Of a stretch of DNA of 64,000 nt, positions 1 through 26,395 are shown in pieces. This DNA is from Marinobacter qingdaonensis. GTDB taxonomy: Bacteria; Pseudomonadota; Gammaproteobacteria; Pseudomonadales; Oleiphilaceae. The translations under genes were made by a program, and so were the position numbers. Position 1 is the stretch's first letter, and each line of letters begins with the position of its first letter. The stretch lies in the NCBI RefSeq assembly GCF_034555935.1, contig NZ_JAYDCJ010000003.1, forward strand, positions 1,240,001 through 1,304,000. The letters are read 5' to 3'. A model generated the notes under the pieces. That model searched no databases, was not told the DNA's origin, and saw nothing but the letters and a program-made list of their open reading frames with translations.

Positions 1-356
1 GGCGGGAATTGAACCCGCGTCCGCCAGTACTCTGCCTTGAGATCTACATGTTTAGCTTCCTTCTATTGATTTAATCTCAAGCGGCCCGAAGGTCAGGGCG
101 CAAGAGACGAGCTCTTTGGATCTTAGCTAGCGGCCAGTGAGCTCTGGACGCTAGAGCAGCCTGTTAGCGATGACGTCCTGAGATGTTGCTTCTGGGATAC
201 AGGCATCCCAGTCAGGACGACTAGCAGCTTACGCTGCTAGTGCGTAGTTTTCGTCGTTTGCGACTATTTAAACGCAGCTTTGGATTAACGAGATTGGCTG
301 CCATCTCGACATGCACCCAAGGGTTCGCAACCGGCGTCGAAGCCATGTCGTCCCCC
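1..356 (-). ncRNA. ssrA: tmRNA, 3' end truncated by window edge
   Basis: Read on the minus strand, the RNA begins with a G-run at 356-352 followed by the conserved GGCTTCGACGCCGG segment and ends at base 1 in the T-arm GGTTCAATTCCCGCC. The last few acceptor bases and CCA lie outside the window. The internal tag frame, the paired T-arm and a length near 360 nt all match the one-piece gammaproteobacterial tmRNA. It rescues stalled ribosomes together with SmpB, whose gene is at 1995-2474 on the same strand. Confidence 0.97.
229..261 (-). other. tmRNA proteolysis-tag reading frame (ANDENYALAA)
   Basis: The resume codon GCA is at 261-259. Eleven codons read A-N-D-E-N-Y-A-L-A-A-stop, identical to the Escherichia coli tag. 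The LAA end is the known ClpXP/ClpAP degron, so rescue and tag-directed proteolysis should work canonically here. Confidence 0.97.
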
Positions 357-23978: not shown

Positions 23979-24063
23979 GCCCGGGTGGTGGAACTGGTAG
24001 ACACGCTATCTTGAGGGGGTAGTGGCGAAAGCCGTGCCGGTTCGAGTCCGGCCCCGGGCACCA
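23979..24063 (+). tRNA. tRNA-Leu (anticodon GAG)
   Basis: Acceptor GCCCGGG pairs with CCCGGGC (24053-24059), discriminator A and encoded CCA at 24061-24063. The anticodon loop CTTGAGG gives GAG, reading CUC/CUU. A long variable arm and GGTTCGAGTCC T-arm confirm a class II leucine tRNA. It starts 7 nt after secG, so the tRNA is probably processed from the secG transcript. Confidence 0.97.
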
Positions 24064-24071
24064 TATTAGAA

Positions 24072-24108
24072 GAAAAAAACGGCTTGGCTAACCCAGGCCG
24101 TTTTTTTT
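24072..24108 (+). terminator. Intrinsic terminator after tRNA-Leu
   Basis: AAAAACGGCTTGG pairs with CCAGGCCGTTTTT (one G-U), short loop, followed by an eight-T run. Confidence 0.92.
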
Positions 24109-24117
24109 GGTCAGTCC

Positions 24118-24146
24118 TTGACCAGTCCGTTTGGCGTCTCTATACT
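24118..24146 (+). promoter_or_regulatory. Strong sigma-70 promoter in the tRNA-Leu / rimP gap
   Basis: TTGACC (24118-24123), 17-nt spacer, TATACT (24141-24146): five of six matches in each box. It lies directly after the tRNA terminator and points towards rimP. Confidence 0.8.
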
Positions 24147-24152
24147 CCGGCG

Positions 24153-24277
24153 GATATTGAGACCAGCGCCCTGGGCGCAGGTTTCTGGCAGGCCAGGTGT
24201 CTGTCAGCAGGAAGCGGTTCATCGGTGTGCTTCCTGTGAGTTCTTGCAACAAAAGGCCCCAACATTCGGGGCTTTTT
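24153..24277 (+). ncRNA. Candidate small RNA or rimP-operon leader
   Basis: A transcript from the promoter at 24118-24146 would end at the terminator at 24250-24277, about 125 nt. It would fold a GCGCC/GGCGC hairpin (24166-24178), a CTGG/CCAG hairpin (24185-24196), an 8-bp CAGGAAGC/GCTTCCTG stem (24208-24236) and the terminator. No plausible coding frame is seen. It could instead be the attenuated leader of the rimP-nusA-infB operon. I do not recognise a named RNA family. Confidence 0.5.
24250..24277 (+). terminator. Intrinsic terminator of the candidate small RNA
   Basis: AAAAGGCCCC / GGGGCTTTTT stem with loop AACATTC, ending in T's. Confidence 0.85.
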
Positions 24278-24284
24278 GATTAAG

Positions 24285-24304
24285 GGGCCTGGCGCATCAG
24301 GCCC
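24285..24304 (+). repeat. GGGCCT/AGGCCC hairpin upstream of rimP
   Basis: A 6-bp GC stem with an 8-nt loop and no T-run. It lies between two terminators, so the gap of 319 nt between tRNA-Leu and rimP holds four strong hairpins in tandem. Confidence 0.6.
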
Positions 24305-24312
24305 TGGTGCAT

Positions 24313-24341
24313 AAAAAGGGCTGATCAACAGCCCTTTTTTT
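24313..24341 (+). terminator. Second intrinsic terminator before rimP
   Basis: Perfect stem AAAAAGGGCTG / CAGCCCTTTTT with loop ATCAA, followed by further T's. It ends about 40 nt before the rimP start, so rimP transcription must either read through it or begin inside that short gap. Confidence 0.92.
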
Positions 24342-24382
24342 GTTTTTGGGCCCGGTAAATTTACGAACGGAGATGGCAAAAC

Positions 24383-24844
24383 TTGTCAGCCAAGCTTAAG
24401 CAACTGGAAGACATTCTTCGCCCGGTGGTGGAAGGCCTCGGTTACGAATTCTGGGGCATCGAGTACCGCTCGCAGGGCCATTACTCCAAGCTTCGGGTGT
24501 TCATCGACAACCCGGAACAGGGGGTGTCGGTCGACGATTGTGAGAAAGTCAGTCGTCAGATCAGTGGTGTGATGGATGTGGAAGACCCCATCCAGACCGA
24601 ATATACCCTGGAAGTGTCATCGCCCGGAATGGATCGCCCGCTGTTCCGCCTGGAGCAGTATGAGGCGTTCGCGGGGCATCGGGTCCAGATCCGATTGCGC
24701 ATGGCCTACGAGGGGCGGCGCAAGTTCGAGGGCCTGCTGAAAGGCATTGAAGGTGACGATGTGGTTGTGGTGGTCGACGACCACGAGTATCTGCTGCCGT
24801 TCGAGAGCATTGAGCGGGCACACATCGTCCCGGTTTTTGAGTGA
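24383..24844 (+). CDS. rimP: Ribosome maturation factor RimP
   Basis: Assists assembly of the 30S subunit. The 153-residue protein has an N-terminal alpha/beta domain ([20 protein letters not shown]...LRVFID), the conserved [14 protein letters not shown] segment, and a C-terminal SH3-like domain. It starts at TTG 24383, with GGAG 10 nt upstream; no in-frame ATG is available nearby. It opens the rimP-nusA-infB-rbfA-truB-rpsO-pnp run. Confidence 0.96.
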
Positions 24845-24901: not shown

Positions 24902-26395
24902 ATGAGTAAAGAGATCTTGCTGGTGGTTGAGTCCGTCTCGAACGAGAAAGGAGTCGAGAAGGATGTGATTTTCGAGGCGATCGAACTCGCTCTCGCCACC
25001 GCGGCCAAAAAGCGGTACGAGGACGAAGAAGCCGACATTCGAGTGTCTATCGACCGTCGCACCGGCGAATACGAAACCTTCCGTCGCTGGCTGGTGGTCG
25101 ACAACGACGCCGTGCCAGCGCTGGGAACCGAGCTGACTCTGCAGGAAGCGGGTGACATCGACGAAGAGCTCAAACCGGGCGACATCCACGAAGAGAAGAT
25201 CGAGTCGGTGGCCTTCGGTCGGATTGGCGCCCAGGCGGCCAAGCAGATCATCTTCCAGAAAGTGCGTGAAGCCGAGCGCACCAAGATTGTCGACAGCTAC
25301 CGTGACCGGGTCAGTGAGCTGGTGTCCGGTACCGTCAAGAAGGTAACCCGCGACAACGTCATCGTTGACCTCGGCGCCAACGCCGAGGCCCTGCTGCCCC
25401 GGGAAAACCTGATTCCCCGGGAGACTTTCCGCATGGGCGACCGGGTTCGCTCCCTGCTGCTGGAGATCCGCACCGACCATCGCGGCCCGCAACTGATCCT
25501 CAGCCGTACCGCGCCGCAGATGCTGATCGAACTGTTCCGCATTGAAGTGCCTGAGATCGCCGAGGAGCTGATCGAGATCCGTGGTGCCGCCCGCGATCCG
25601 GGCTCCCGCGCCAAGATTGCCGTCAAGACCAACGACCGCCGGATCGATCCGGTCGGCGCCTGCGTCGGTATGCGTGGTTCGCGGGTTCAGGCCGTGTCCA
25701 ACGAACTCGGTGGTGAGCGCGTCGATATCGTGCTGTGGGACGACAACCCGGCCCAGCTGGTGATCAACGCCATGGCACCGGCCGAAGTCGCGTCCATCGT
25801 CATGGACGAGGACCGCCACACCATGGACGTCGCGGTTGCCGAAGACAACCTGGCCCAGGCCATTGGTCGTAACGGCCAGAACGTACGCCTGGCCACCGAC
25901 CTGACCGGCTGGACCCTGAACGTGATGACCGAGGAAGAAGCCGGCGAGCGTCAGGAACAGGAGTACAATCGTCTGGTTGAGCACTTCACCAGCAACCTGG
26001 ACGTCGACGACGAGTTTGCCGGCTTCCTGATTGAGGAAGGCTTCACTTCCATTGAAGAAGTGGCCTATGTCCCCATGGAAGAGATGCTGGCGATCGACGG
26101 CCTGGACGAAGAAACCGTCACCGAGCTGCGTCGCCGCGCCAAGGATGTCCTGTTGAACCAGGCCCTGGCCAGCGAGGAGGCGCTTGAGGGTGCCGAGCCG
26201 GCAGAAGACCTGCTGGGTATGGACGGCATGGACCGCGGACTGGCGTTCAAACTGGCCGGCATGGGCGTACGCACCATGGAAGATCTGGCCGAGCAGTCCG
26301 TAGGTGATTTGCTTGAGATTGAAGGTATGGATGAAGAGCGTGCCGGTCAGCTCATCATGACCGCACGTGCCCCCTGGTTCGAAGACCAGGCTTAA
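24902..26395 (+). CDS. nusA: Transcription termination/antitermination protein NusA
   Basis: RNA polymerase-bound factor in pausing, termination and antitermination. The 497-residue product starts [17 protein letters not shown], then S1 domain (about 135-200), KH1 and KH2 (with [21 protein letters not shown] and [11 protein letters not shown]), and two C-terminal helix-hairpin-helix acidic repeats (about 365-415 and 440-490). All domains of the E. coli protein are present. It precedes infB by 18 nt. Confidence 0.98.

Follow-up and report, generated by a model that had tools for sequence, protein, structure and literature searches.

What is encoded in the 319 bases that separate tRNA-Leu from rimP in Marinobacter qingdaonensis, a discrete small RNA or a leader that controls the genes downstream? 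Both readings were offered by the original prediction, made on a stretch of 64,000 nucleotides (contig NZ_JAYDCJ010000003.1), here called the window, in which all coordinates are given and all features lie on the plus strand unless otherwise stated. The upstream neighbour, tRNA-Leu(gag), was located at 23979-24063 by ARAGORN. The downstream neighbour, rimP (24383-24844, 153 aa, TTG start at 24383), is an open reading frame with a RimP_N (PF02576) match above the cut-off, and it is the first gene of rimP-nusA-infB-rbfA-truB. The second open reading frame of the operon (24902-26395, 497 aa) we take to be nusA from gene order and sequence, and from open reading frames and known gene features the genes of the region are presumably ftsH, folP, glmM, tpiA, secG, tRNA-Leu(gag), rimP, nusA, infB, rbfA and truB. 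At its beginning (1-355, minus strand), the window also carries a tmRNA gene, which its edge truncates. The gap itself holds, in order, the intrinsic terminator of tRNA-Leu (T0), a promoter, three hairpins (H1, H2 and H3), a linker, a first terminator (T1), a fourth hairpin (H4) and a second terminator (T2).

T0 (24080-24109) was found by terminator scan, folding and conservation. The near-consensus promoter that had been predicted right after it was recovered by promoter scan and conservation at 24118-24146, with the -35 TTGACC (24118-24123), a spacer of 17 nt and the -10 TATACT (24141-24146), matching the consensus at 10 of 12 positions. Sites of this type occur once in 601 bases, compared to 0.2 expected in shuffles, and the promoter spacing alone places the predicted transcription start at about 24153 (24152-24154). 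An inverted repeat, TGGTCA-GTCCT-TGACCA (24108-24124), overlaps the -35; it may not be an operator, since its left arm is broken (GAGCAG) in some relatives.

Downstream of the predicted start, the RNA folds more stably than expected, with a minimum free energy z-score of -6.2 for 24152-24345 and of -4.4 for 24152-24282, and none of 200 shuffles was equally stable in either case. More specifically, two of the stems proposed originally were found again, GCGCC/GGCGC as the core of H1 (24159-24185) and CAGGAAGC/GCTTCCTG in H3 (24207-24237), while the third, CTGG/CCAG, gave way in the minimum-energy fold to a GGCAGGC/GTCTGTC stem, redrawn here as H2 (24187-24205, GGCAGGCCAGGTGTCTGTC). The linker (24239-24252) has its core, TTCTTGCAACAA, at 24241-24252, and its last three bases double as the foot of the T1 stem. 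T1 (24250-24278; GCCCC..GGGGC, U5; hairpin of -17.4 kcal/mol) corresponds in the folds to the complete intrinsic terminator that was expected about 105-130 nt after the promoter. H4 (24284-24305, GGGGCCTG..CAGGCCCT), found by folds and conservation, and T2 (24313-24341; GGGCT..AGCCC, U7; -15.3 kcal/mol), found by folds, by the scan and by alignment to RF01770, agree with the second hairpin and second terminator anticipated before rimP. On the plus strand, T0 and T2 were picked up by the simple terminator scan and T1 was not, so that the T1 call relies on folding and on the alignment to Rfam; T1 was probably missed by the scan because its A-T pairs are absorbed into the stem. A similar conserved string, CAGGCC..GGTG, is present in H2 (24189-24199) and in H4 (24298-24309), and is possibly a repeated binding motif.

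The conservation of these features was evaluated in the best 80 of 115 genome stretches encoding a RimP relative, all 80 titled Marinobacter. The comparison used 80 intergenic regions, all distinct in sequence, drawn from the window and from 79 of the 80 loci retrieved; L026 was omitted as its contig begins inside the tRNA, and it was still matched by the later covariance model of the element. Two of the 79, L070 and L074, are apparently assigned by the genome collection to other genera, paired with L083 and L085. The -35 does not vary among the 80 regions, the -10 has a mean identity of 99.8%, and the promoter spacing is 17 in 79 regions and 18 in the remaining one. Mean column conservation is 0.91 for T0 (24078-24109), 0.77 for the promoter spacer, 0.875 for T1, 0.924 for H4 (24281-24312) and 0.961 for T2. 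Between promoter and T1 it alternates, with 0.594 in H1, 0.945 in H2, 0.688 in H3 and 0.948 in the linker. Indeed, H2 is exact in 57/80 regions and forms a hairpin in all of them, and the linker core is exact in 69/80 and not found in two. H2 and the linker are thus near-invariant, and H1 and H3 are hairpins of variable sequence, H3 with a conserved base.

Folded alone, H1 gave a single hairpin in 80/80 regions (70 distinct sequences) and H3 in 78/78 (62 distinct entries, including one empty entry for the two that were dropped, L070 and L074, in which the bounding linker was not found). At such short lengths a single hairpin forms easily, and the comparison with shuffles weighs more than these counts: the mean z-score was -2.65 for H1 and -3.22 for H3, with values below -2 in 71% and 91% of the regions, respectively. 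RNAalifold on 21 sequences predicted 34 pairs, 12 of them with compensatory changes. In a model-fitted alignment (85 matches, composed of 81 sources, all matched, and 4 short reverse-strand matches to T1; 81 distinct rows), 97.0% of the cells were paired, compared to 41.8-58.8% after sliding the partner by 1 to 3 columns. None of 500 shuffles attained the observed covariation score of 0.286. This alignment is biased towards the structure, whereas the individual folds are independent of it. The compensatory changes that the original prediction expected in the stems across relatives are present, as 16/34 pairs changed on both sides, including 6/6 modelled pairs of H1 and 7/10 of H3; these counts do not equal independent events because the sequences are related. 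H1 and H3 are conserved as shape, not as sequence.

How far does this 5' domain extend beyond Marinobacter? A model of it, R1, was searched in 20 of the 38 non-Marinobacter genomes of the family that have a rimP match. It scored 44.9-48.5 bits in L084, L085, L087, L088 and L090, 35 bits in L083 and 25 in L086; these seven loci belong to three close genera, and a string resembling H2 is readable in all of them. Other loci showed T1-only matches or, with the full model, scores of at most 30.5 bits (L092), and L086 is therefore supported by its H2 string and not by its score. Before T1, the linker of L084-L088 and L090 is a different conserved string, approximately CACGTAACGACTTCAG, so that not all carriers of H2 require the Marinobacter linker. 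A search across the class with R1 (274 genomes, stricter filters) gave three matches, of which the only strong one was the window itself. The two weak matches, one adjoining rimP on the opposite strand and the other with no rimP in the fetched stretch, were judged to be chance T1-like hairpins. The new part of the region is a lineage-specific three-hairpin 5' domain with near-invariant segments, and it is well supported. It is not mentioned in the available text of PMC2965389 or in that of the literature carrying the phrase "rimP leader", in a search that covered few subscription journals.

The 3' half of the region points to a known kind of element. The rimP leader heads the ranking by Naville and Gautheret 2010 of the genes for which attenuation was most frequently predicted. 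It has a terminator with a GGGc..gCCC stem and a U-stretch, located 4-130 nt ahead of the gene; several Gammaproteobacteria carry a further terminator, CCCg..cGGG, in tandem upstream of it (PMC2965389). In the window, T2 has the general motif of these leaders, 41 nt before 24383, and T1 has the upstream GCCCC..GGGGC form, its inner g being A; both lie in what would be transcribed as the 5' UTR of rimP-nusA-infB. The RF01770 match at 24220-24341 (31.6 bits, E 0.0023), the best among the matches listed, stays below the gathering cut-off of 47 bits, and at this cut-off RF01770 had no match in the window or in seven Marinobacter-titled loci. We also analyzed loci from 59 of 105 genomes from the rest of the order. 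Twenty of the 59 were scanned with RF01770: with a threshold of E up to 0.01, six gave matches of 36-44.6 bits and 14 gave none, and none of the 20 reached 47 bits. With regular expressions, T1 was found in 49 of the 59 upstream regions, T2 in 44 and both in 36, 23 loci lacking one or both, and the two patterns occurred together in none of 1180 mononucleotide shuffles. The location is a common one for an attenuator, and the leader is of the published rimP-leader kind, lying outside RF01770 at its cut-off. That cut-off may be too strict for Pseudomonadales, so that members are missed. This supports the second reading of the original prediction, an attenuated leader of the nusA operon with NusA as candidate factor, the published kind being the rimP leader (PMC2965389).

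We consider it likely that the region is a 5' leader and transcription attenuator of rimP-nusA-infB, a lineage-specific extension of the rimP leader, with NusA as the most likely readthrough factor. From the anatomy, position, conservation and covariation observed, we infer how promoter, terminators and controlling factor would work. A vegetative-type promoter would start transcription near 24153, insulated by T0 from tRNA-Leu; RNA polymerase would make H1-H2-H3 and the conserved linker, meet T1, and then H4 and T2. Most transcripts would stop at T1 (about 125 nt) or at T2 (about 190 nt), and readthrough would express rimP-nusA-infB. Readthrough would most likely be set by a protein recognising the conserved RNA, with NusA as leading candidate and a feedback in which more NusA would lead to more termination. 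Such a protein is in line with the available text of PMC2965389, whose authors reported no larger conserved element and argued for a motif-recognising protein, NusA being the best candidate. That NusA autoregulates the operon in E. coli is cited there and in PMC6511841, and E. coli transcripts rise when termination by NusA is reduced (PMC6511841).

Other ways of controlling readthrough were considered. No antiterminator of T1 was seen in the folds. In a candidate anti-T2 helix, the 5' arm of T2 (24308-24322) would pair with the linker at 24239-24248. Such a state appears along the series of minimum-energy folds of the growing transcript, and 766/800 cells are paired, against 30-59% when slid. 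Both strands of this helix are nearly invariant, and the evidence for it is weak, as several variants break pairs and 9% of shuffled linkers attain the same duplex energy. The linker was also compared with boxA. In two named Marinobacter genomes the rrn leader contains ACGCTCTTTAAAAA, and by manual count the linker agrees with the boxA core of these leaders at about 7/11 positions; the string GCTCTTTAAAA of Marinobacter rrn leaders is presumably boxA. The exact GCTCTTTAACA is absent from the assembly of the window, in which a contig end truncates the rrn leader. The likeness of the linker to ACGCTCTTTAAAAA is only loose, and close genera that keep H2 have another string in its place, so that the linker is a weak candidate for a boxA or a NusA site. 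A literature search on boxA, NusB and rrn leaders found none, and a search for Marinobacter RNA data gave none on Marinobacter by title. A leader peptide was judged unlikely, since the lengths of H1 and H3 vary freely between relatives.

The tandem terminators could merely lower the expression of the operon, with H1-H3 protecting or spacing the 5' end and no regulation involved. The stability of the T1 and T2 hairpins, with their U-tracts, and the lack of a convincing antiterminator in the folds would suit this explanation, but the conservation of H2 and of the linker exceeds what a spacer would be expected to need when compared to the promoter spacer and to H1, and we regard it as unlikely.

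The first reading of the original prediction, a discrete trans-acting small RNA of about 125 nt running from 24153 to T1, with rimP downstream by chance or secondarily coupled, appears to us equally improbable. The 12 conserved nucleotides that directly precede the terminator resemble the seed-plus-terminator layout of small RNAs that bind Hfq, and the region has its own promoter and a complete T1. The rimP leader is also listed among ProQ-associated, attenuator-derived small RNAs (PMC5391140). Against a trans-acting role, the T1 and T2 patterns are found together upstream of rimP in 36/59 order relatives, with or without a preceding tRNA-Met. In addition, no target is apparent: in a genome search for perfect pairing, an 11-nt complement to the linker turned up only on the strand opposite the linker itself, and both the 15-nt core of H2 and model R1 match the genome once, at the leader. 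With the attenuator as the preferred reading, an RNA of about 125 nt ending at T1 would be expected as a by-product of attenuation.

In most of the sampled order, the slot occupied by H1-H3, between promoter and T1, holds a tRNA-Met. ARAGORN detected a tRNA-Met upstream of rimP in 45/59 order loci, presumably of the initiator type by analogy with E. coli metY, and in none of 79 Marinobacter-titled loci or 20 family loci. In 17 of the 45, the tRNA-Met is preceded within 60 nt by a promoter of the TTGAC type, and none was found in the other 28. By eye, the interval from the called tRNA-Met to T1 in L108, L109, L133, L137, L151 and L165 holds copies that resemble tRNA-Met and are partial or degenerate; L109 has a unit of about 80 nt repeated three times in near-identical form, and each repeat ends in GCCCCCGCTACCA. 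The arms of a tRNA are shorter than the stems of H1-H3. That H1-H3 is a decayed tRNA-Met, as this distribution of tRNA-Met and its promoters might suggest, is highly improbable, because a tRNA covariance model applied to 24000-24420 at E up to 10 recovered tRNA-Leu only, with no match to H1-H3, and because H1-H3 covary as hairpins of their own, with stems longer than tRNA arms. A further proposal, which we think rather unlikely, is that in the Marinobacter lineage a new three-hairpin RNA replaced the tRNA-Met and acts as a sensor, H2 and the linker binding NusA or a ribosome-assembly protein, and that the product of about 125 nt is an abundant protein-titrating small RNA.

How does the extended leader compare with known systems? 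The E. coli metY-nusA-infB leader (P-1, P0, P2, t1, t2) shares with it promoters, two terminators before rimP and the operon order. In E. coli, promoter P2 lies at the 3' side of metY, t1 and t2 are upstream of rimP, and RNase III sites are present (PMC6511841); NusA autoregulation is reported for that leader. It differs by its tRNA-fMet gene (metY) and RNase III processing, whereas the Marinobacter loci have no tRNA-Met at this place. The small RNA asX2 (RF02236) gave a weak match, 20.1 bits against a cut-off of 70, ending in a T1-like hairpin; Shewanella RNAs have been labelled rimP and asX2, yet a table places them by trpE (PMC5471319). The closest likeness is with the rimP leader of Naville and Gautheret 2010, which has the same place upstream of rimP-nusA-infB and the same tandem terminators. 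Its controlling factor was inferred in that study. To that plan the Marinobacter leader, with an RF01770 score below the cut-off, adds H1-H2-H3, the near-invariant linker and H4. The genus, and in part some close genera, thus have a compact domain of variable stems and near-invariant segments, a defined candidate for the site of recognition if, as was proposed decades ago, NusA regulates its own operon through the leader.
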